Origin: a virus
IMG/VR virus record: IMGVR_UViG_3300022200_005406
Location: 1-24,098 of that record
DNA length: 24,098 bases
Direction: 5' to 3' (one strand)
Made by a program: the position numbers and the translations under genes. The notes under the pieces were generated by a model. The model was not told where the DNA came from. It ran no database searches and saw only the letters and a program-made list of their open reading frames with translations. Of this stretch, positions 8,830 to 21,746 are shown piece after piece (positions within the stretch are counted from its first letter, which is position 1; every line of letters starts with the position of its first letter).

Positions 8830-9008
8830 GTTTGACTCCCTCGTTGATCATAATATTGTTTGATTTTATTGTAATCGCTTTCAACCACATAGACGTTGTT
8901 GCCAGATTGCACTGCATTTCCTGGAGTAACCTCTATGAAATCGTCTGTACCGTCCTCTTTATAGAAGCGATGGCCTTCGTGAACCACGATGATATTAGTT
9001 TCGGTCAT
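8826..9008 (-). CDS. Hypothetical protein, 60 aa
   Basis: Starts MTETNIIVVHEGHRFYKEDG and overlaps the end of the metallophosphoesterase gene by 14 bases, then overlaps the TTG start of the nucleotidyltransferase gene by 4. Composition suggests a small beta-rich domain with a C-terminal Tyr-rich helix. No motif recognised. The tight overlaps suggest that the phosphoesterase, this protein and the nucleotidyltransferase are made together. Confidence 0.65.
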   Translation of the reverse strand: MTETNIIVVHEGHRFYKEDGTDDFIEVTPGNAVQSGNNVYVVESDYNKIKQYYDQRGSQT

Positions 9009-12593: not shown

Positions 12594-13466
12594 TTACTGT
12601 GCAGGACCTTTAGCTTCTTCCGTAACATCGATGAACGGAATAGCTCCATCACCAGTCATCCGAGGTAGTACGCCGTCCCACTTTTCGAGAGCCCGATAAC
12701 GGACAAGTTCGTCCGTGATCGATTCGGCCAGCAGCTTGTTAGCTTGCGCTTGTGCCTCAGCCACCCTCAAGATGGACTGTGCTTCGCCTCGTGCCACTTC
12801 AATCGCTTTATCCGCTTCGGCTATTGCTTGCTCGACCTCATTCCGACGTTGTTGAGCCTTTTGTGTAGCTTCGATCTTGGCGTTGATCGATCCGATCACG
12901 TTGTCGGGCAGACGAATCTCTCCGATCCAGTAAATCTTCGATACAATAATTCCCTGCGACTGAACCTGATCCCGAACAATCTGGAGGGCGGTTTCGATCA
13001 AGGCAGCCTTACCAGCTCCGTACACATATTCGACAGGTTTGTCGGACGCGACTTTGACAAGAGCATCTCTGACCATGTTGCGAAGGAACGTATCGGTGAT
13101 TTCATCAACGCCGCGCCGATACGTTTGATAAATCTCGGTCACCTGCATAGGATCGATCGAGTAAGAGATTCCGACATCAGCGTTGACAGTCAAGCCTTCA
13201 ACCGTTTGGAATGAAATAGACTCGTCGTTTTCAGATCCACCTCGAGAATCAGCAGTCCACTCATAGTTTTGCATAAACGTGGGGAACAGGTACAGTTCTT
13301 CATTGAACCCGATCCAGTAACGGCCAACGCCCAATTCTTCTGAATCAACACCCTTGTCACCGCCGAGCAGGTACACTTTCACTCCGACATGTCCCGCTGG
13401 AACCTTAGAGCACGCTGCGAGAGCTCCGAGCAGCATTGCAGTCAATACAACATTACGAATTTTCAA
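12594..13466 (-). CDS. SPFH/prohibitin-family lipoprotein (HflC-like)
   Basis: A 290-residue protein of the stomatin/prohibitin/HflKC superfamily, which forms ring-like scaffolds on membranes and often regulates proteases. I chose TTG at 13466 as the start because AAGGAG lies 7 bases upstream and the frame then begins with a textbook lipoprotein signal (MKIRNVVLTAMLLGALAACS). The lipobox is LAAC with Cys19, and Ser at +2 favours export beyond the inner membrane in E. coli-like hosts. Residues 25-190 form the SPFH domain (VPAGHVGVKVYLLGG; ISFQTVEGLTVNADVGISYS). Residues 195-255 are an Ala/Glu/Gln-rich coiled coil (AIAEADKAIEVARGEAQS), as in prohibitins. It follows a small membrane protein with which it overlaps. 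Confidence 0.85.
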   Translation of the reverse strand: MKIRNVVLTAMLLGALAACSKVPAGHVGVKVYLLGGDKGVDSEELGVGRYWIGFNEELYLFPTFMQNYEWTADSRGGSENDESISFQTVEGLTVNADVGISYSIDPMQVTEIYQTYRRGVDEITDTFLRNMVRDALVKVASDKPVEYVYGAGKAALIETALQIVRDQVQSQGIIVSKIYWIGEIRLPDNVIGSINAKIEATQKAQQRRNEVEQAIAEADKAIEVARGEAQSILRVAEAQAQANKLLAESITDELVRYRALEKWDGVLPRMTGDGAIPFIDVTEEAKGPAQ

Positions 13467-13659
13467 TTTTAATCTCCTTGTTTGTAGGTCGCTTTGCATA
13501 CTTTATAATCGCATAAATGACAACTGGCATACTGATAATATAAGCAATACCAACCATCACGAGAACGTTGCTAGCTGCCGATATTAGAAACGGTAGCACA
13601 ACCCCAAAACTGGCTATGATATACAATCCTGCCAGCACAATCAACCCATATAGTCTCAT
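13453..13659 (-). CDS. Small two-helix membrane protein, 68 aa
   Basis: Starts MRLYGLIVLAGLYIIASFGV; residues 3-26 and 29-53 are strongly hydrophobic and likely form two transmembrane helices, followed by a basic cytoplasmic tail (KYAKRPTNKEIKIENS). The ATG at 13659 has AAAGGAG five bases upstream, better than the in-frame GTG just before it. Its last codons contain the ribosome site of the SPFH lipoprotein, with a 14-base overlap, so the two are coupled and may act together at the envelope. Confidence 0.75.
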   Translation of the reverse strand: MRLYGLIVLAGLYIIASFGVVLPFLISAASNVLVMVGIAYIISMPVVIYAIIKYAKRPTNKEIKIENS

Positions 13660-13859: not shown

Positions 13860-15311
13860 TTAGTACCTTTCAATTTCTTGAGGGACATACTCTTTTTCAT
13901 CGAGAGCAGCCCGTTCGCGAATTTGCTCGAATGTATCTTCGATGAGCAACTCTCCATTGACGAAGATGGTGCGCATCAAATTGTCTTGCGGTTTAACAAT
14001 ATGTTCGGGTAGGCTACGGAAACCGCAGCTCCCAACTCCACACTGTCGCACAAGAGCCAGGCGACCTTGCTTCGACTGCTTGCCTTTGTCAGTGATGGGA
14101 TCTTTACTGAATCCGACCCATTCCCCGCCATCGATTCGAATTGCGGACGCCTTCATTGCATATTTGAGGGTGTCGCGGTTCCATGCTTGGAGCAGACCTC
14201 CACCCATGCCGAATGCAATGTTATCAGCGCTGAACCCTTTTGCTTTGAGGTTCTCCAAGATGACAGGCAACGACGCTTCATTGATACCATCCCCTTGGAT
14301 CACACGGATGTAAGGAGGAAGAACCTTATACCCTTTCGAGTTGACAGTGAAACCAAACTTCTCAGCGAGAATCTCGATCACTTCAACAGGCACCGTTTCC
14401 GGATCACCTGAGTCAGGACGTACCACTAAGGTGCCGCCCATATTGACGATCTTATCTTTGAGCTGTTCACCCCAAAGATCACGGCAAGCTGCGTAGATAT
14501 CAAAGCTGTCAGAAACACAGGCGACAATCTTTCCAGGGCCGCCAAACGTGTCTAGCATATTTTCGTACGCGTCGACCTCATTCTCACGTCCCCACGAGGT
14601 GATCGTAGAGTGTTCAGAAGCGGGAATCGAGAACCCAACCACCTGATCGGTGTTGTAGTATGCCATCACCCCTTCGATTGCCTCGAACGTATCAGTGCCC
14701 ATGAAGTTGATCAAATGGCCCATACCACCAAGAACAGCGGTCTCACCAGAAGAAGCGCCACGAGCTCCAAAGTCGTGCAGTTTGAACATCAGTTGATCCA
14801 TCACAGGAACGTCCGACGTTTCGTTTAGATATTTGGCAATCACGACTTTCATCTTACGACTTTTGGTCGCAACGGTGGAAGGATACCACACACCACGCAG
14901 CAAAGCGGTCTCGATGTACGAGGTCAGCCACCACAGACGAGGATCGGTATTAACAACCTGCACTTGGACGTTGCGAGTATCCATTACAGTCCCTTCCGGA
15001 ACAGCTTGGATCTCAAGAGGAAGCATGCCATTGTATTCATTGACGATGACTTCCCAACCTTCGCGGTTGAATGGAAGACCGTGTGCAGTGACGATCTTCT
15101 CGGCCCGATCGATGTCTTTCATCGTGATCGGAGTAAGTAGGTAGTCTTTGATGAACGCTTGCAGCCCAAAGAACACCGACTTGTCTTCGCCTCCACGCGA
15201 CTCGATGTACGAGCTGATATGCGTGGTCCCTTTGGGATATTGCTTCCACTGACTGAATTTGTAGCTGTCAGTGCGGACAATAAGACTCATAAGTGATAGT
15301 GCGTTTTTCAT
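13860..15311 (-). CDS. nadV: Nicotinamide phosphoribosyltransferase (NAMPT)
   Basis: A 483-residue enzyme that joins nicotinamide to phosphoribosyl pyrophosphate to make NMN, the first step of recycling nicotinamide to NAD+. Family landmarks are present: DSYKFSQ near the N terminus (15-21), the nicotinamide pocket KLHDFGARGASSGETA (D180), the catalytic His in IPASEHSTITSWG (H234, matching human His247), and VVRPDSGDPE (R298, D300) for the phosphoribosyl group. Length is typical (human NAMPT 491). The ATG has GGAG eight bases upstream, held in a hairpin loop, and a strong promoter precedes it. NadV with an NMN adenylyltransferase is the two-enzyme NAD+ reconstitution route known as NARP2 in phages; KVP40-type phages also carry nadV. 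The adenylyltransferases are encoded 2-4 kb upstream on the same strand. Confidence 0.96.
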   Translation of the reverse strand: MKNALSLMSLIVRTDSYKFSQWKQYPKGTTHISSYIESRGGEDKSVFFGLQAFIKDYLLTPITMKDIDRAEKIVTAHGLPFNREGWEVIVNEYNGMLPLEIQAVPEGTVMDTRNVQVQVVNTDPRLWWLTSYIETALLRGVWYPSTVATKSRKMKVVIAKYLNETSDVPVMDQLMFKLHDFGARGASSGETAVLGGMGHLINFMGTDTFEAIEGVMAYYNTDQVVGFSIPASEHSTITSWGRENEVDAYENMLDTFGGPGKIVACVSDSFDIYAACRDLWGEQLKDKIVNMGGTLVVRPDSGDPETVPVEVIEILAEKFGFTVNSKGYKVLPPYIRVIQGDGINEASLPVILENLKAKGFSADNIAFGMGGGLLQAWNRDTLKYAMKASAIRIDGGEWVGFSKDPITDKGKQSKQGRLALVRQCGVGSCGFRSLPEHIVKPQDNLMRTIFVNGELLIEDTFEQIRERAALDEKEYVPQEIERY

Positions 15312-15361
15312 AATAGAAACTCCTTCTATTGTTTGTGTTGTGCCAGCTCTCTCTGAACTGG
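15312..15361 (-). promoter_or_regulatory. Twin-hairpin leader of nadV
   Basis: First hairpin (15343-15361): stem CCAGTTC/GAGCTGG (7 bp, one G-U) with loop AGAGA. Second hairpin (15312-15330): stem AATAGAA/TTCTATT (7 bp, perfect) with loop GGAGT, the ribosome site; the ATG follows immediately. The spacer is 12 bases. The two loops match those of the leaders before the NadM-Nudix, pnuC and 120-aa genes, while the stems differ in sequence but still pair. Confidence 0.7.
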
Positions 15362-15374
15362 TCTTTCATTCTAG

Positions 15375-15402
15375 ATAGTAGCATATTCTACAGTAATGTC
15401 AA
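15375..15402 (-). promoter_or_regulatory. Strong sigma70-type promoter for nadV
   Basis: Minus strand TTGACA (15397-15402), a 16-bp spacer, and TACTAT (15375-15380) with a TGC extended -10 just before it. It overlaps the end of the CYTH gene, and the predicted start of transcription lies just before the first leader hairpin. This suggests that host RNA polymerase expresses nadV early. Confidence 0.6.
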
Positions 15403-15888
15403 CAGATTCCTTGCATATGCTACATCAGAAAGTCTGGAACTGGTAAAGTCGTAATATCTATTTTTCGGAACATCATAAACTATATGCGATTTCAAAAGGT
15501 CGAGAATTTCTTCGGGCTTGTCAGCTTTCGAATCAAGCATCTCGCATTCTGCCATCGCAAAATAGATAGAACCTTGATCGAAGAAGAAATCAATGTCCCA
15601 CGTATTTCCGTACTTATCCTTCGAGGTGTATCTTTCCTTTTCGAGACGATTCGAACATACAGGATAGCAACGTTCGAATTCTTCTTTCGATATTTCCATT
15701 TCAAATTCTTCAATCACATCGTTTTGGACTAGCTTGTAGTTGAACGTGTAAAAACCATCTTGATTTCTGAAACGTGCTCCACGGTTATCATACCCTTGAA
15801 CGATTCGAGAACCATTTAGACTATTCGTGTGTACAAACATTGTATACGATTCAGGACTTAAAACGTATTTAAGTTCGTTTTCGATCAT
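15388..15888 (-). CDS. CYTH-domain protein (triphosphate tunnel fold)
   Basis: A 166-residue protein beginning MIENELKYVL, the ExExK signature (E3, E5, K7) of the CYTH superfamily. Later strands fit the tunnel fold: YTFNYKLV, EEFEMEIS, a basic RLEKERYT turn, WDIDFFFDQG, and AECEM with acidic metal ligands. Members include adenylate cyclase IV, thiamine triphosphatase, inorganic triphosphatase and RNA triphosphatases; the metal-dependent reaction at a triphosphate is a family inference and the substrate is unknown. The GGAG site is eight bases before the ATG. It lies just upstream of nadV and carries the nadV promoter in its final codons. Confidence 0.7.
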   Translation of the reverse strand: MIENELKYVLSPESYTMFVHTNSLNGSRIVQGYDNRGARFRNQDGFYTFNYKLVQNDVIEEFEMEISKEEFERCYPVCSNRLEKERYTSKDKYGNTWDIDFFFDQGSIYFAMAECEMLDSKADKPEEILDLLKSHIVYDVPKNRYYDFTSSRLSDVAYARNLLTLL

Positions 15889-15912
15889 TCAATTAGCTCC
15901 ATTTTAGCTGCT

Positions 15913-16170
15913 TCATACCATTTTCACAGTCACGGTCGTTTCAACTTTCAACGGCTTGACGCTAACGGCCTTGAACTTTTTGTTCCGGTTGGTTAGCTGT
16001 GTAACCTCATTGCAAAAATCCGTCCAGCTCGTGAATGATCGATAGTTGATTGTTTCTTCATAATGCTCTGGATATCCGTGACCAGGATTTGTTCTCGAGC
16101 GTTCGTCGCCAGGAATGTAGATTCGGTCTACAGTAATGATTGCCCAATGCTCTTCATCTGGAATATTCAT
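15913..16170 (-). CDS. Hypothetical protein, 85 aa
   Basis: Starts MNIPDEEHWAIITVDRIYIP, with AGGAG six bases before the ATG and a TAATG overlap with the preceding 33-aa gene. Predicted strands at 9-19 and 65-85 surround a polar loop (RSRTNPGHGYPEHYEE) and a helix (TSWTDFCNEVTQLTNRNKK). No motif recognised. Confidence 0.65.
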   Translation of the reverse strand: MNIPDEEHWAIITVDRIYIPGDERSRTNPGHGYPEHYEETINYRSFTSWTDFCNEVTQLTNRNKKFKAVSVKPLKVETTVTVKMV

Positions 16171-16271
16171 TAACGTCTCCTCTTGTTGATTGTACGGCGC
16201 ACGTCAAACACAATCTTAAACCTAGGGAGGATCTCAATCCGAAACCAACCAACTCTAAAATTGATATTCAT
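16170..16271 (-). CDS. Tiny basic protein, 33 aa
   Basis: This short frame exactly fills the gap between the zinc-ribbon gene and the 85-aa gene: its ATG overlaps the preceding stop (ATGA), and its TAA overlaps the next ATG (TAATG). The protein begins MNINFRVGWFRIEILPRFKI and ends in a basic run (NKRRR). An amphipathic or membrane-active basic peptide is possible. The double coupling is the main argument that it is a gene. Confidence 0.6.
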   Translation of the reverse strand: MNINFRVGWFRIEILPRFKIVFDVRRTINKRRR

Positions 16272-16579
16272 TTGATACCTGCGTCGTCGATATAGGATTT
16301 GCTCTTATACCAACTACTGGACCATGGTGTGAGATTGTTATAGTCGAAAGGCCAATCTTTTCTCGGAACGTCTGCGATAGACGAGCAGACGGGACATTTG
16401 AAGCAAACTGCTGGATCTCGAGAGCCCCAGCTATCGCCAGGAACTCCCTCGTAATACCGGAGATCGTCCTTATCAACCAACAAGGTTGCTTCACATCCTT
16501 TGTGGCCGTTACCGTGTCCCGTGCAGACCGCTTCCATAGCCCACTTTTCGCCATAACGGCCTGGTTTAAGAACTTTCAT
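16268..16579 (-). CDS. Zinc-ribbon-like hypothetical protein, 103 aa
   Basis: Starts MKVLKPGRYGEKWAMEAVCT; the GGAG site is six bases upstream and the gene overlaps the HNH gene by 14 bases. Cys and His residues are arranged as C19, H22/H26, C30, then C59, C62 and C65, so one or two zinc sites are likely (CTGHGNGHKGC and FKCPVC). Tryptophans cluster in the second half. Small zinc-ribbon proteins of this sort in phages can modulate transcription or bind nucleic acid; the role here is unproven. An overlapping frame of similar length is a shadow without a ribosome site. Confidence 0.7.
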   Translation of the reverse strand: MKVLKPGRYGEKWAMEAVCTGHGNGHKGCEATLLVDKDDLRYYEGVPGDSWGSRDPAVCFKCPVCSSIADVPRKDWPFDYNNLTPWSSSWYKSKSYIDDAGIK

Positions 16580-17072
16580 TATTTACTCCACGTGTTAACC
16601 GTTGTAGATTTTCCGCAATTAGATGAAGTTCGTCAACAGTCGCATCGTTTTTAATTCTGTTGGCTCTATTTGAGCAAACGATTACGTTCTCAGGCACATA
16701 ACCTTTGGTTGGATTTAAACGATCGATACTTTTATTGCGATCGGGAAACGCAATGCAGTCTTCCTGAGTTTCGTTTAACCTGACCCCTAAATACGGACAA
16801 GTGTTAGTGTTGTCTAGAGCTTCTCGTAACCATTCCAACGTCAACATGAATTCTATCCCTCGCTCACGAGATCTCATCTTTATCTCGTTAAATCTTTCCC
16901 GCGAGCGATTATACACGTAGTTGTTTTTTCTACGTTTTGCATGAGCGTCCGTGACACAACGGGGACAAGTATTGTCGAGTACAGCAAACGCTTGCAAACC
17001 GTGACGTTTACACACGTTGTAGTACTTTTTTGTCCCCGTTGCTTTTGCTTCTGAAAGATTACTCGCTATCAT
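16566..17072 (-). CDS. HNH/endonuclease VII-type nuclease
   Basis: A 168-residue protein with an N-terminal zinc knuckle (C21, H24, C36, C39), a basic linker (KRRKNNYVYNRSRERFNEIK) and a C-terminal region typical of phage HNH-type endonucleases: CPYLGVRLN (92-100), SIDRLNPTKGYVPENV (115-130) and CSNRANRIKNDAT. These proteins are often free-standing homing-like nucleases that move between phage genomes. GGGAGAG lies 4 bases before the ATG, and an exact T4-type late promoter and a hairpin lie upstream. It interrupts the NAD gene region between the NadM-Nudix gene and nadV, which fits insertion. Confidence 0.75.
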   Translation of the reverse strand: MIASNLSEAKATGTKKYYNVCKRHGLQAFAVLDNTCPRCVTDAHAKRRKNNYVYNRSRERFNEIKMRSRERGIEFMLTLEWLREALDNTNTCPYLGVRLNETQEDCIAFPDRNKSIDRLNPTKGYVPENVIVCSNRANRIKNDATVDELHLIAENLQRLTRGVNNESS

Positions 17073-17080
17073 TTTACTCT

Positions 17081-17108
17081 CCCGGTAAAGTTTGTTTCCC
17101 TTACCGGG
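17081..17108 (-). other. 8-bp hairpin before the HNH gene
   Basis: Arms CCCGGTAA and TTACCGGG surround a 12-base loop, ending just before the GGGAGAG ribosome site. The late-promoter start is expected inside the left arm, so the full hairpin would form only on readthrough mRNA from the NadM-Nudix gene and might then limit translation of the nuclease from early transcripts, as seen for T4 intron and homing genes. Confidence 0.45.
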
Positions 17109-17116
17109 TATTTATA
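17109..17116 (-). promoter_or_regulatory. T4-type late promoter upstream of the HNH gene
   Basis: An exact TATAAATA followed by C, immediately after the NadM-Nudix stop codon. This octamer is the T4 late promoter consensus read by the gp55 sigma factor. It should start RNA near 17103 and drive the HNH nuclease and the small genes after it. Confidence 0.65.
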
Positions 17117-18289
17117 TCAAATTCCTAGAAAATGTGAAATAATATGGTAGTGATCCTCAAAAAATTCCTCTTGGCGCAGTTTACTGAATGGCAACCAATA
17201 TGCATCAGCAGCATCATCGGACCCCTTGACTTTAGGTAACTCACCGACACCAAGATCGATAAAGTACGCTTGGGTAATAGTACGGCCTCGCTGAGAACGG
17301 TTGGGAGCATCAAACGTTTTGGATTCTTTGATGGACCCTTTGAGCACGGGAACAGGAACTTTAATCTTCGTCTCCTCTTTCAATTCCCTAATGCAGCCAT
17401 CCAACATTGTCTCGTCTTGATTGAGGAAACCGCCAGGCAACGCTTGCAAATTTTTCCCAGGCATGTCGCCACGCTTGACCAGGAGGATGTGACCAGATTG
17501 AACCACGACAGCATCGACAGTCATGAACGTTGGAGGGAAAGGTGCGGCCTTCCACGCTTCCTTGTACTTTTTGATCATCTGGTATTCCGTACGAAGGGTC
17601 AGCCATGAGTCGGAATAACCGTCAGGACCGTCAGCGACAATTTTCGAAACCACACGAACGGCTTCTTTCGGCATGACGGAGGCCGGATTCAGACCTTCTA
17701 CGTTGTTCCCGAGAAGAGCTACGCGAATATCAGTCGCATTGATACCACCAACATCTGGAACTTCAATATGGTTCTTCCAACGCGGGAAGATATTCAGGTA
17801 GTAGCTGGTGCTATCTTTGGAGTGGCCGATCAGACCGACGTCTTTCGCGTAAGGAACCGCATCATCGACGATCTTCTGAATCGCGTTGACCCATTTGTTG
17901 TCGTCGTACGGGTAATCGGAGACAGGAACGACAAGAACACGAGGCACTGTATAAGCACCACGCTCAGCACCAATGTCTTCGCCGTTGATCGTGGTCGTCT
18001 GATCTTTGTAGATCGACTCGATCATGGCTTTGCGTTCTTGGAATGTGAAGGGGTTTCGAATATTGCGAGCTGCAAAACTAGAACCGACAACAACGATGAC
18101 CTGTTTAGCTTGCTCGAGCGCGGCATCGATGACCGCTTTGTGTCCATTGTGGAATGGCGAAAATCTCCCAATAAAGACTAGTGCGTCACGCACCGTCTTG
18201 TCTTGTTGTGGCTTCTTCGACTTGGGCAAGTTGTCAAACTCACCAGTCCAGTATTCGCCGCTTTTCTTATCGCGAGGATCATATTCCAT
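17117..18289 (-). CDS. Bifunctional NMN adenylyltransferase / Nudix hydrolase (NadM-Nudix)
   Basis: A 390-residue fusion. The N-terminal half is an NMN adenylyltransferase that makes NAD+ from NMN and ATP: GRFSPFHNGH (41-50) carries the HxGH nucleotidyltransferase motif, and INATDIR (183-189) is the ISxTxxR-type motif. The C-terminal half is a Nudix domain with the full box from G287 (GGFLNQDE...RELKEET), preceded by a strand that reads VDAVVVQSGHILLVKR; such domains in these fusions hydrolyse ADP-ribose. The same architecture is known in cyanobacterial NadM-Nudix and the KVP40 natV product. The start ATG at 18289 follows the SD-loop hairpin. It works directly on NMN made by NadV and by the NadR kinase domain. 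The first 30 residues are a lysine-rich extension. Confidence 0.94.
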   Translation of the reverse strand: MEYDPRDKKSGEYWTGEFDNLPKSKKPQQDKTVRDALVFIGRFSPFHNGHKAVIDAALEQAKQVIVVVGSSFAARNIRNPFTFQERKAMIESIYKDQTTTINGEDIGAERGAYTVPRVLVVPVSDYPYDDNKWVNAIQKIVDDAVPYAKDVGLIGHSKDSTSYYLNIFPRWKNHIEVPDVGGINATDIRVALLGNNVEGLNPASVMPKEAVRVVSKIVADGPDGYSDSWLTLRTEYQMIKKYKEAWKAAPFPPTFMTVDAVVVQSGHILLVKRGDMPGKNLQALPGGFLNQDETMLDGCIRELKEETKIKVPVPVLKGSIKESKTFDAPNRSQRGRTITQAYFIDLGVGELPKVKGSDDAADAYWLPFSKLRQEEFFEDHYHIISHFLGI

Positions 18290-18291
18290 GT

Positions 18292-18335
18292 GCAAAAACT
18301 CCTTTTGCTATATTATGTGGGCCTCTCTGGCTCAC
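18292..18335 (-). promoter_or_regulatory. Twin-hairpin leader of the NadM-Nudix gene
   Basis: First hairpin (18317-18335): GTGAGCC/GGCCCAC with one A-C mismatch and loop AGAGA. Second hairpin (18292-18308): GCAAAA/TTTTGC with loop GGAGT, holding the ribosome site nine bases before the ATG. The spacer is 8 bases. The late promoter upstream would start RNA at about the first base of hairpin 1. Confidence 0.7.
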
Positions 18336-18340
18336 GTTTG

Positions 18341-18348
18341 TATTTATA
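18341..18348 (-). promoter_or_regulatory. T4-type late promoter upstream of the NadM-Nudix gene
   Basis: Exact TATAAATA followed by C. RNA from it should start within a base or two of 18335, where the first leader hairpin begins. It implies late-phase expression of this NAD gene in addition to any readthrough from upstream. Confidence 0.65.
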
Positions 18349-18350
18349 TG

Positions 18351-18536
18351 TCACTTTTGCTGACGAGCAGCAGTCTCCCACGACAATTTCATTAGGTCGT
18401 AGCAAAGATTGTACATTTGACGATCCCTAGTGACATCAGGCATTGACTTGCATATTAACCCATGAAACTCATCGAAAGACAACGTGTCGATTTTGTTTAT
18501 TTGATCCTTACGCATATCAAAGATTGAAGTGGTCAT
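18351..18536 (-). CDS. Small hypothetical protein, 61 aa
   Basis: Its ATG overlaps the stop of the NadR-like gene (TAATG), and GAGGGA lies five to ten bases upstream inside that gene. This start is preferred to an upstream in-frame one that would lie wholly within the NadR-like gene. The product, beginning MTTSIFDMRKDQINKIDTLS, is a helical soluble protein with two Cys and no recognised motif. Its expression is coupled to the NadR-like enzyme. Confidence 0.65.
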   Translation of the reverse strand: MTTSIFDMRKDQINKIDTLSFDEFHGLICKSMPDVTRDRQMYNLCYDLMKLSWETAARQQK

Positions 18537-19567
18537 TAGTCCCTCACGTATTCCGCGATGTGCTTTGTTTGATCGTCGAAAAGATGGATGACCTTTCGAG
18601 CGACTTCCATTTGCTGGTAACGCTGCGACGTTGCAGTAACAACGTGGTAGTTGCAACCATATTCTTCCAGAAGATCAATCCAGAATTGAGTCGGGCTCTC
18701 ACGCTTGTCACCGCCATAGCGAATAGGATCAGCTTCGAAGGGAATCAGATCGTTCATCACGATATACAGGTCAGACTTGGTACGTTTCGCGTAGTATTCT
18801 ACGAGATCGTTGTCGTGATCAGTGCCTCCACCCCAAAGACGGTAGTAGCCCAACGTGCTGAATAAATCAGTGTCTTGGAAGATGAACGGCTTGTTGAACA
18901 GATCGTGTTGAGCAGTTTGCTGTAAAGCATACTGCCCGTGGATGATATCTCGCATCTTATCATCAGTGATTTCAGCGCCAACAGTTTCGAGATATTCACG
19001 AGCCCATTCGGGAACAAAGTGTCCATTGAGCTCTTTAGCGAGCCATCGAGTCATCGTGGTTTTCCCGCAACTCTCAGCACCGAAGATAGTCACAGTTTTA
19101 CGAATGTTGCGCTGAAAAGCAGGGAGGATAAACTCGAAGCTGTCCATCAAATCGTGCCTGACATCGGATCCCTTAATTGGAACCGTCTCCCGATAGCGGT
19201 TGCATGGCATGAATTTGCAGCCGAGAACATTAGCCATATCCATCCCGTAGAGCTCGCTGGCAACAAAGTAGTCGTCGGGTTGAACGTCCACAAACTCTCG
19301 AACAATGTCTTTCCACACATTCCAGAAGTCAGGGTGTTCGCTGGGATCTTGAGGGACGTCACGGTGCAAGTGATGAATTGTGACTTTAGAGTCCAACCTA
19401 TACACTTCGTTAAACGCTGTTACTCGCTTCCAGCCCTCAACAGGTTCTCGGTCCATCGTGCCAACAATTACGTGGACATGGCCTGCTAAATTTTTAGCGT
19501 AGTCGATCAGGTACTTGTGCCCAACAGTGGGCACAAGTGCAGTCATTAAAACAATAGCATTAGTCAT
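18536..19567 (-). CDS. nadR: NadR-like NMN adenylyltransferase / ribosylnicotinamide kinase
   Basis: A 343-residue bifunctional enzyme. Residues 1-150 form an adenylyltransferase domain with TVGH (14-17) as the (H/T)xGH site and IKGSDVR (131-137) as the second substrate motif. Residues 158-330 form a P-loop kinase: Walker A GAESCGKT (163-170), EWAREY (187-192) and FQDTD (230-234), matching the ribosylnicotinamide kinase half of NadR. It would phosphorylate nicotinamide riboside to NMN and adenylylate NMN to NAD+. Unlike Enterobacteria NadR there is no N-terminal helix-turn-helix, so it is not a DNA-binding repressor. AAGGA lies eight bases before the ATG. Linkage to pnuC and nadE supports its job in riboside uptake. 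Confidence 0.92.
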   Translation of the reverse strand: MTNAIVLMTALVPTVGHKYLIDYAKNLAGHVHVIVGTMDREPVEGWKRVTAFNEVYRLDSKVTIHHLHRDVPQDPSEHPDFWNVWKDIVREFVDVQPDDYFVASELYGMDMANVLGCKFMPCNRYRETVPIKGSDVRHDLMDSFEFILPAFQRNIRKTVTIFGAESCGKTTMTRWLAKELNGHFVPEWAREYLETVGAEITDDKMRDIIHGQYALQQTAQHDLFNKPFIFQDTDLFSTLGYYRLWGGGTDHDNDLVEYYAKRTKSDLYIVMNDLIPFEADPIRYGGDKRESPTQFWIDLLEEYGCNYHVVTATSQRYQQMEVARKVIHLFDDQTKHIAEYVRD

Positions 19568-19763
19568 CGTTCGATTCCTTGTCTGAAACTTTCAGGATGA
19601 GACGTTTCACTGCATCGAAGAAATTATCGTGCTGGTCAACAAAGCCATTGGCTTTCATTACGTCAACCAGTTCAATAGCTGCATCCGCCGATAATTTGTT
19701 TTCGGCAACGAGATCGAGAATCTTGTTAACAGTACAACTAACAAACCTGATAGGCTTATCCAT
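19560..19763 (-). CDS. Small hypothetical protein, 67 aa
   Basis: Starts MDKPIRFVSCTVNKILDLVA two bases after the nadE stop and overlaps the NadR-like start by 8 bases. The body is two or three amphipathic helices (LSADAAIELVDVMKANGFVD...FDAVKRLILKV). No known motif is visible. An in-frame TTG six bases upstream is an alternative start. Its place between two NAD enzymes suggests co-expression, not necessarily shared function. Confidence 0.65.
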   Translation of the reverse strand: MDKPIRFVSCTVNKILDLVAENKLSADAAIELVDVMKANGFVDQHDNFFDAVKRLILKVSDKESNDD

Positions 19764-19765
19764 GA

Positions 19766-20584
19766 TCAATCGTCCAATTTAAAGCCAACCGGCCAGTTTC
19801 TCTTGTGTCGTGTCTTTTCATACTGCGCTACAATCTTTGCAACTACAGCGGCTTCAATATACTTGCCCTCAAGGAAATTGTCAAGGTCTTCGTATGAAAA
19901 ACCTAGCGCAACTTCATCGGGGTTTTGTGGTTTGTTGTCCTCAAGATCGGCAGTCGGTGTTTTGTTAAACATCGTACTAGGTGCGCCGAGCGTTTCTGCA
20001 ATCTTACGAACCTGGCGCTTATTCAAACCATTGAGCACAGTAACATCGCACGCTTGATCGCCCCACTTGGTGTAGAATGCTGGAACCAGCTCAGAGTTGT
20101 GATCAGTCCCCACAACTAGACACCCGAGAAGTCCGGCGATGTCGTATTGTGCGACCATTCGGATTCTTGCTTTCACGTTGCCTTTGTTGAAGTCCGAATG
20201 GTGTTCGTTTTCAAACAGACCAGACAACTGACTGTGCAGCGTATCCGTCGGCTCTTTGATGTTTACCGTGATGACCTCGTCGGGATTAATGAACTGTAGC
20301 GAGGCTTGTGCGTCCGCCTCATCTCGTTGCGTGCCGTAGGGTAGGCGCACAGCGTAGAAGTATGCTGTGTATCCTTGTTCGCGCAGCTCTGTACAAGCAA
20401 TCTGGCACATGCGCCCTGCAGTCGTGCTGTCGACTCCACCGCTGATTCCAAGCACGTAGCCGTTGAGCCCAGTTTCGACCAGGTAGTTTTTAAGGTAATC
20501 AATTCGCGCTCTGGCTTCTGCGACGAAGTCAATATCCTCGGTTGCGCGAACGCCGTGGAGGTGGAAAATTTCGTGTTCGGTCAT
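19766..20584 (-). CDS. nadE: NH3-dependent NAD+ synthetase
   Basis: A 272-residue enzyme that amidates nicotinic acid adenine dinucleotide to NAD+ using ATP and ammonia. The ATP-pyrophosphatase P-loop SGGVDS is at 48-53. Other conserved blocks are VGTDHNSELVPAFYTKWGD, LNKRQVRKI and PTADLEDNKPQNPDEVALG, matching the E. coli NadE pattern and size (275). There is no glutaminase domain, so free ammonia is the donor. The ATG at 20584 is chosen because AGGAG lies seven bases upstream; the frame extends further but only over the upstream hairpin. It adds the deamido route, so the phage could use nicotinic acid precursors made by the host and adenylylated by NadD-like activity. Confidence 0.94.
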   Translation of the reverse strand: MTEHEIFHLHGVRATEDIDFVAEARARIDYLKNYLVETGLNGYVLGISGGVDSTTAGRMCQIACTELREQGYTAYFYAVRLPYGTQRDEADAQASLQFINPDEVITVNIKEPTDTLHSQLSGLFENEHHSDFNKGNVKARIRMVAQYDIAGLLGCLVVGTDHNSELVPAFYTKWGDQACDVTVLNGLNKRQVRKIAETLGAPSTMFNKTPTADLEDNKPQNPDEVALGFSYEDLDNFLEGKYIEAAVVAKIVAQYEKTRHKRNWPVGFKLDD

Positions 20585-20610
20585 TTTGCTTCTCCTATAA
20601 AATAGTGGTA

Positions 20611-20632
20611 GTGGCTGCAATTAAGCAGCCAC
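20611..20632. terminator. 8-bp hairpin around the pnuC stop codon
   Basis: Arms GTGGCTGC and GCAGCCAC enclose a 6-base loop containing the TAA stop of pnuC. No immediate U-run follows on the minus strand, so complete termination is doubtful. It may reduce readthrough to nadE or stabilise the pnuC message end. Confidence 0.4.
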
Positions 20633-21277
20633 CATGGTCTTTTTCCATTGGATGTGACCAATTACAGTATTTCCGAGGAAGAAGATATACTGGAAAGCAA
20701 CCAAAGTCAACCCACTGTGAATGAAGAACGGAATGGAAACGATATCGATCACAGCCCACAGAGACCAGGTTTCGAGTTTTTTGTTGTCAAGCATTAGCTG
20801 TGCAACACCGCTTGCAACTGCAAGTCCAACATCGATCGGGTTGAGAGCAGTCAGACCGGCAGGGTTGAACAGGAGGTTCGCAAGAAGGAACAGTCCCAGA
20901 ATTACGAGTCCGATTGCACCGTACCCAGCATACCATTTCGGTGCAATCCGAGTCACTGGCCGAGTGTTATCATCGCTGCCCCAACGGAACCAGCCATAGA
21001 TCAGAGAAAAGACGAGGTACAGATTGAAGATCGCCAGAGCAATCATACCCCACTGATAGAACAAAACGGAATACGCTGCCGTCGTTACGATGCCAATCGG
21101 GTAATTCCAGCGGCTTTGACGGGTGCACAACCAAGTGCAGCTATAGCTGGTGGCGACAGCGAATACTTCCAGCCAGTTGAGATCGACGATCCAACCCATC
21201 CAAATTCCTACACCGTAGCTCAGTGCAGTCAGTACAATCGCAAGAGCAATCGATTCGAGAATGTATTTGGTAGTCAT
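20621..21277 (-). CDS. pnuC: PnuC-family nicotinamide riboside transporter
   Basis: A 218-residue inner-membrane protein with about seven hydrophobic helices. PnuC landmarks include SRWNYPIGI, LIYGWFRWG in the middle, and KKLETWSLWAVIDIVSIPFF in the second half, where Trp and Asp line the substrate path. It should take up nicotinamide riboside by facilitated diffusion, trapped by the kinase domain of the NadR-like enzyme encoded 1.7 kb downstream. The ATG at 21277 lies nine bases after the GGAG in the SD-loop hairpin; an in-frame TTG just before it lies within the hairpin stem and is unlikely to be the start. Size is typical for the family. Confidence 0.93.
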   Translation of the reverse strand: MTTKYILESIALAIVLTALSYGVGIWMGWIVDLNWLEVFAVATSYSCTWLCTRQSRWNYPIGIVTTAAYSVLFYQWGMIALAIFNLYLVFSLIYGWFRWGSDDNTRPVTRIAPKWYAGYGAIGLVILGLFLLANLLFNPAGLTALNPIDVGLAVASGVAQLMLDNKKLETWSLWAVIDIVSIPFFIHSGLTLVAFQYIFFLGNTVIGHIQWKKTMVAA

Positions 21278-21279
21278 TT

Positions 21280-21322
21280 GCAAAAACTCCTTTTGCTGTT
21301 TACAGAGAACTCTCTGTTCTCT
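21280..21322 (-). promoter_or_regulatory. Twin-hairpin leader of pnuC
   Basis: First hairpin (21304-21322): AGAGAAC/GTTCTCT, perfect 7 bp, loop AGAGA. Second hairpin (21280-21296): GCAAAA/TTTTGC with loop GGAGT. The spacer is 7 bases. The upstream TATAACAA (21326-21333) may be a degenerate late promoter placing the RNA start at hairpin 1. It has the same design as the nadV and NadM-Nudix leaders. Confidence 0.7.
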
Positions 21323-21328
21323 TTGTTG

Positions 21329-21691
21329 TTATACCTTTTTGATGTCGACTGCGATAATATCGCCGCCGCTACCCCACGTGTAGAAGTCGTCCAGCTTTAC
21401 AGCATATTCAACGACGTCGCGGAGCTTACCTTGCACCGTTCCGAGATCGGGTTGGTAATGATGGCCACCCAAATCACAGTTCGGGTCTTCACCACAGATT
21501 CGCCAGACTCCCACATCGTCAAGGGTGTGGGTTTTCAGCAATTTACTCGCACCATAAGAGGTTCGAATCCACTTTTCTGCCTTATTGGCAGCAGAGCGTT
21601 CCACCTCACATTCGTGTGCAATCGCTACGGTGTAGGAATCAAACACACTACCATCAGAGCACGTGTACGTGGTCGATTTCAGGATAGCCAT
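21329..21691 (-). CDS. Hypothetical protein sharing the NAD-gene leader, 120 aa
   Basis: Starts MAILKSTTYTCSDGSVFDSY at an ATG nine bases after GGAG in the SD-loop hairpin. The sequence has a Y-x-C-x-DG-x-x-F and A-x-AHE pattern like many small phage proteins, a Cys/His-containing middle (CGEDPNCDLGGHHY) that could bind metal, and ends with YTWGSGGDIIAVDIKKV. I do not recognise the family. It carries the same leader element as three NAD genes and directly precedes pnuC, so a role linked to NAD supply or its regulation is a reasonable inference, no more. Confidence 0.7.
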   Translation of the reverse strand: MAILKSTTYTCSDGSVFDSYTVAIAHECEVERSAANKAEKWIRTSYGASKLLKTHTLDDVGVWRICGEDPNCDLGGHHYQPDLGTVQGKLRDVVEYAVKLDDFYTWGSGGDIIAVDIKKV

Positions 21692-21693
21692 TT

Positions 21694-21737
21694 GCAAAAA
21701 CTCCTTTTGCTAGTATGAATAAACACTCGCTGGTTTA
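21694..21737 (-). promoter_or_regulatory. Twin-hairpin leader of the 120-aa gene
   Basis: First hairpin (21720-21737): TAAAC/GTTTA plus an inner C-G pair with one bulged base, loop AGCGA. Second hairpin (21694-21710): GCAAAA/TTTTGC, loop GGAGT, identical to the pnuC and NadM-Nudix copies. The first hairpin is the weakest of the four, but the arrangement is the same. Confidence 0.6.
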
Positions 21738-21746
21738 CTCTGTATG

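Follow-up and report, generated by a model that had tools for sequence, protein, structure and literature searches.

The window (the whole stretch of DNA that was analysed, 24,098 nucleotides) is a 24-kb fragment from a large phage, in which all NAD genes lie on the minus strand. The NAD cluster is transcribed in the order 120-aa gene, pnuC, nadE, 69-aa gene, nadR-like gene, nadM-Nudix, and nadV. Two successive hairpins (hereafter, HP1 and HP2) precede the start codons of nadV, nadM-Nudix, pnuC, and the 120-aa gene; nadE and nadR, both downstream of pnuC, do not carry this element. The start of nadM-Nudix is the ATG at 18289, not the TTG picked by the open reading frame list. The features are as follows (CM, covariance model; SD, Shine-Dalgarno sequence).

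13860..15311, minus strand: nadV, nicotinamide phosphoribosyltransferase, 483 aa (Pfam NAPRTase/NAMPT_N)
15312..15330, minus strand: HP2 of the nadV leader, stem AATAGAA/TTCTATT, loop GGAGT with the SD, abutting the ATG at 15311 (folding)
15343..15361, minus strand: HP1 of the nadV leader, stem CCAGTTC/GAGCTGG, loop AGAGA (CM match 15313-15365, E 9e-6; folding)
17117..18289, minus strand: nadM-Nudix, NMN adenylyltransferase plus Nudix, 390 aa (Pfam CTP_transf_like and NUDIX)
18292..18308, minus strand: HP2 of the nadM-Nudix leader, stem GCAAAA/TTTTGC, loop GGAGT, before the ATG at 18289 (box search and folding)
18317..18335, minus strand: HP1 of the nadM-Nudix leader, stem GTGAGCC/GGCCCAC with one A.C mismatch, loop AGAGA (CM match E 5e-14, the sequence itself being part of the model)
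20621..21277, minus strand: pnuC, nicotinamide riboside/NMN transporter, 218 aa (Pfam NMN_transporter)
21280..21296, minus strand: HP2 of the pnuC leader, stem GCAAAA/TTTTGC, loop GGAGT, before the ATG at 21277 (box search and folding)
21304..21322, minus strand: HP1 of the pnuC leader, stem AGAGAAC/GTTCTCT, loop AGAGA (CM match E 5.5e-11, sequence outside the model)
21329..21691, minus strand: 120-aa gene, phrog_33851, an annotation without function; the element is also present before the gene of a relative in L026
21694..21710, minus strand: HP2 of the 120-aa gene leader, stem GCAAAA/TTTTGC, loop GGAGT, before the ATG at 21691 (box search and folding)
21717..21740, minus strand: HP1 of the 120-aa gene leader, stem AGTAAAC/GTTTATT with a bulged U, loop AGCGA (CM match E 1.4e-8, sequence outside the model)

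A megablast search of the window against phage records returned no match, and its nearest relatives are G001 (a 283 kb contig, PnuC 90% identical) and G002 (519 kb, PnuC 86% identical). Elsewhere in the window, a Band 7/SPFH (prohibitin-like) protein is encoded near the NAD genes (12594-13499), and a different hairpin (CCCGGTAA...TTTACCGGG) lies on the minus strand at 17072-17115, right before the start of a 168-aa gene.

A sequence-only reading of this DNA had described four leaders with a common order, namely HP1 with loop AGAGA or AGCGA, a spacer, HP2 with loop GGAGT, and ATG, and this order is present on the minus strand as claimed. Reading of the leaders confirmed that the HP2 stem is GCAAAA/TTTTGC in three of them and AATAGAA/TTCTATT in nadV; the size of the second hairpin was corrected to a stem of 6 bp in the former and 7 bp in the latter. 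HP1 and HP2 make up both the minimum free energy and the centroid structure in 4/4 leaders (ViennaRNA), with folding z-scores of -2.0 to -2.9 in three leaders and 0.06 (no excess stability) in that of the 120-aa gene. Three copies of the HP2 box are present in the window, where 0.05 would be expected.

The same reading held that pairing is preserved with different bases, and relatives of the window bear this out. In the nadV and pnuC leaders of G001, the loops, their order, and their spacing are as in the window and the HP1 stems are different. A covariance model (R1), built from ten near-ungapped leaders, found matches in many contigs before nadV, nadM, and pnuC, and 13 of the 14 base pairs in this lineage showed double compensatory changes. 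A second lineage of nadV and nadM leaders (lineage B; model R2), in which the HP1 loop is ATAGA and the usual closing pair is G-C, had double changes at 12 of 13 pairs. Paired cells amounted to 94.3% in the R1 lineage (60.4% when shuffled, 30–56% when slid) and to 91.6% in the R2 lineage (control: 58.7%), percentages that are somewhat inflated because the alignments were fitted to the models, even though the seeds have practically no gaps and pairing collapses in the slid controls. Both helices therefore carry the compensatory base changes that define a structured cis-regulatory RNA. The sequence-only reading would have been given up if relatives kept the GGAG without the pairing or covariance searches found no further members; we found the pairing kept and new members.

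The described pattern is genuine and extends further than first stated. The proposed number of at least four genes holds for the window and is too low overall, given that the element occurs in dozens of large phages that are in many cases only distantly related. Our collection comprises 79 distinct leaders (48 loci), nearly all located before nadV, nadM-Nudix, or pnuC. Their HP1 loops (AGAGA, AGTGA, AGCGA, ATAGA, and AAAGA) give the consensus ANNGA, and a further form (type C, GNNGUA) precedes nadM and nadV in the enterobacterial jumbo phages RaK2, Munch, and SNUABM_44 (Klebsiella/Salmonella/Erwinia phages), which were identified by inspection. The overall HP1 loop is RNNG(U)A on a stem of free sequence, with a variable closing pair (C-G, G-C, A-U, or U.G). 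HP2 loops follow GGA(G/A)N, and GGAAC, GGAUU, and GGAAA also occur; the spacer between the hairpins is 3–18 nt long, contains 4% G, and is motif-free (79 members). Nearly all multi-element loci show a single loop type per phage, and the type varies between phages. The first two types (AGNGA and ATAGA) look interchangeable, because G002 combines AGNGA (pnuC) with ATAGA (nadV, nadM), and L102 has ATAGA whereas its close relative has AGAGA.

Among named phages, model matches at both nadM and nadV were found in Rhodobacter phage RcXuper, Phaeobacter phage MD18, and Synechococcus phage B23, and Xanthomonas phage LucasX was assigned by model at nadM (E 0.04) and by inspection at nadV. Carrier hosts span cyanobacteria, alpha-, and gammaproteobacteria, and the cultured phages RcXuper, MD18, B23, LucasX, and RaK2 are among the carriers. 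Some nadV genes have HP2 only (L025, L084) and some HP1 only (Munch), and in RcXuper the HP1 of nadV is intercistronic, overlapping the end of the preceding gene. Phages phi-Grn1, phiM7, and YB07 encode NadM-Nudix and NadV and lack HP1. Separately, Ochrobactrum phage OC and L271 have a GGGG-type loop at the HP1 position; the twin hairpins at NAD genes of L113 (861-2957) and L271 (1565-3563), both with a GGGG-type upstream loop, may form a further subtype, as may the nadV leader of a 457-kb phage (L020 [G018], ~8930-8992), in which both hairpin loops are seemingly GAAGT.

To define the gene association, models and hairpin patterns were compared between NAD genes and other genes. Over 12 contigs (2.3 Mb), R1 matched only NAD-cluster genes down to E 7e-5, with the next match at E 0.13, and over 16 records (3.4 Mb) all R2 matches with E<0.05 belonged to nadV, nadM, or a small gene within that cluster; in four phages with the enzymes and without the element, the best model match had E 0.75. 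Hairpins of at least 5 bp with the SD in the loop were found at 69 of 84 nadV starts (82%) and 65 of 84 nadM starts (77%), compared to 15 of 890 other genes (1.7%), several of which are element-bearing neighbours. ANNGA-loop hairpins were present in 74/213 NAD leaders and 20/1089 others, whereas seven control loop patterns reached at most 6/213. When the bare 17-mer GCAAAAGGAGTTTTTGC was scanned in 2.9 million viral contigs with no NAD query, the sites followed by an SD-spaced start codon led to nadM, nadV, pnuC, and their neighbours, with one non-NAD exception that is protease-like. The 17-mer matches listed for bacterial genomes (GTDB contigs) score little above the seed and look like chance. 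The earlier proposal that a structured element at translation starts marks an NAD-gene regulon is upheld by this comparison with relatives. At the level of sequence comparison, both hairpins, their compensatory evolution, their position at the start codon, and their restriction to NAD genes are established.

Rfam contained nothing relevant to the window (E<=10) or to a lineage-B locus (E<=5), and no RNA element of phage NAD genes was found in the literature (mainly open papers, with subscription papers largely outside the scope). We consider that the element represents a widespread, apparently undescribed RNA family that would define a translational regulon of phage NAD salvage; its structure and gene association are strong, and its novelty rests on Rfam plus open papers. 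The NAD+-II riboswitch (pnuC motif) is likewise small, lies in pnuC leaders, overlaps the ribosome-binding site, and is linked to NAD genes, but in Streptococcus it comprises P1, P1a, and a pseudoknot (PMC7749635), whereas the element consists of two plain hairpins in phages. No NAD+-II match was obtained from Rfam in the window at E<=10, using a library not confirmed to contain the NAD-II model.

The sequence-only reading had named host CsrA/RsmA and the T4 RegB nuclease as candidate readers of GGAG in the HP2 loop, which we now regard as highly improbable. The loop GGA does resemble CsrA sites and the GGAG RegB sites, and CsrA/RsmA-repressed leaders also combine a hairpin-loop GGA at the SD with a second upstream hairpin, an arrangement that suits a dimeric binder. 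However, CsrA-bound hairpin loops contain GGA and the HP1 loops, being of the ANNGA form, do not, and a RegB target would have GGAG in all members whereas GGAAC, GGAUU, and GGAAA occur among the HP2 loops. In 14 element-bearing phage records (phage records only), no CsrA gene was found by a search that detected its positive controls, and no RegB by a search without a positive control. To our knowledge, CsrA is not a general feature of cyanobacteria or alphaproteobacteria, and the carriers' hosts include groups without it.

Candidate readers were also sought among shared proteins. A blastp comparison of RcXuper, MD18, B23, and LucasX (E<1e-3, crude ORF calling, so that small or fast-evolving regulators could escape) left NadM-Nudix and NadV as the only shared NAD proteins, together with a likely ribonucleotide reductase and antisense frames. 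NadM-Nudix is encoded in every element-bearing record long enough to judge.

These results bear on a possible new riboswitch, in which the twin hairpins would bind NAD+, NMN, nicotinamide riboside, or ADP-ribose and hide the SD loop of HP2, a reading that is the main rival of the one preferred below, although we find it less likely than not. The controlled genes of known function all serve one metabolite, each gene has one copy of the element, the hosts are diverse, and the distant carriers have no dedicated regulator protein in common. Guanidine-II (mini-ykkC) is a precedent for the architecture, having two successive hairpins with short conserved loops and a variable linker in leaders of genes for one metabolite; its hairpins both have ACGR loops, its loop-adjacent stems are conserved, and its linkers are mostly at least 13 nt (PMC5486947). 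The element instead has ANNGA or GNNGUA in HP1 and GGA(G/A)N in HP2, free stems, and linkers of 3–18 nt. In 15/79 members, a simple length estimate gives a spacer that cannot span both stems for end-to-end loop docking; this speaks against a switch of the guanidine-II kind, with the reservation that stems may fray. Five-base loops, free closing pairs, and an unconserved linker also leave little room for a binding pocket, and the nadV leaders with a single hairpin and the loop types that vary between phages also count against this reading.

Alternatively, an RNA-binding protein or small RNA of the host or phage that is unrelated to the NAD enzymes may read the HP1 loop, given that conserved hairpin loops commonly mark protein or kissing-RNA recognition and that small proteins evade homology search. 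We consider this unlikely, since the four-phage comparison revealed no such shared protein, the hosts differ at the phylum level, and the HP1 loop varies between phages.

The reading we prefer, as a tentative one that falls somewhat short of an even chance, is a translational operator of the NAD-salvage regulon with NadM-Nudix or NadV as feedback repressor; it is favoured because these two are the only NAD proteins shared by the four distant carriers. In this reading, the element is a conserved RNA that acts in cis where translation of the NAD-salvage genes of phages begins. From its anatomy and conservation it follows that HP2, with a five-base loop on a weak stem adjoining the AUG, probably displays the SD, and that the conserved HP1 loop probably serves as a recognition mark. 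A trans-acting factor would bind this loop and, via HP2, block or gate ribosome entry, so that nadV, nadM-Nudix, pnuC, and companion genes would be co-controlled at translation. If the factor were the pathway's own protein, with NadM-Nudix as the first candidate and NadV as the second, NAD synthesis would be under feedback; we infer the repressive direction, the factor itself, and NAD status as the signal. Loop types that are uniform within and different between phages could reflect either co-evolution with a reader acting in trans or shared ancestry; the motif-free spacer and the variable closing pair also speak for such a reader. Against an enzyme as reader, G002 would need one factor to read both AGNGA and ATAGA, and many phages have NadM-Nudix and NadV yet no HP1. 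We know of no case in which either family acts as a sequence-specific mRNA repressor. Phage translational operators include those of T4 gp43 and RNA-phage coat protein, which resemble the element in placing a conserved-loop hairpin near the SD and in that gene products may be autorepressors, whereas here one operator type would extend over a whole metabolic pathway and distantly related phages.

A passive architecture without sensing, in which HP1 acts as a shield for a 5' end and HP2 displays the SD, would agree with the sigma-70-like promoters seen by inspection just 5' of HP1 in many leaders. It appears very improbable, because it leaves the loop conservation and NAD-gene restriction without explanation, and the HP1 of RcXuper nadV, overlapping the preceding gene, is not at an mRNA 5' end. 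The same intercistronic HP1 led us to reject 5'-end protection or NAD-capping at +1 as a general reading. Two pairing schemes were also discarded: kissing between the HP1 loop and HP2, where AGAGA could pair weakly with UUUCU or UUUUU, is broken by AGTGA members and lineage-B HP2s (inspection), and base pairing between the 16S tail and the HP1 loop does not hold for type C loops.

It is somewhat more likely than not that the element belongs to a new class of phage NAD-sensing RNA control, in the form of a tandem-hairpin riboswitch or of a metabolic enzyme doubling as a repressor that reads an RNA loop. The former would be a new NAD riboswitch class, and the latter a rare instance of metabolic enzymes repressing translation of their own pathway. 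Phages counter NAD+-destroying defence systems by rebuilding the cofactor, and we know of no account of how they time or tune this rebuilding; if the proposed control is true, viral NAD rebuilding would be tuned to the NAD level of the cell, for example, after an NAD-depleting defence. The element would provide a common, compact RNA handle on the NAD pathway in large phages that is testable now, since several carriers are cultured.

The element may also serve as a sequence marker for NAD-linked phage genes without assigned function. The 120-aa protein of the window (21329-21691) and a 125-aa protein of L026 (3039-3416) are homologues (phrog_33851) whose genes both carry it, suggesting that this family may be NAD-linked. 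Genes of phrog_12218 (108–109 aa) with the element were observed in L028 (4611-4937), L042 (6605-6931), and L082 (4459-4788). Those of L028 and L082 lie upstream of nadM, which in L028 comes next and has no element of its own. Members of a 213-aa family next to nadM (phrog_1843) carry the element in L093 (8274-8915) and HP2 only in L253 (3970-4614).
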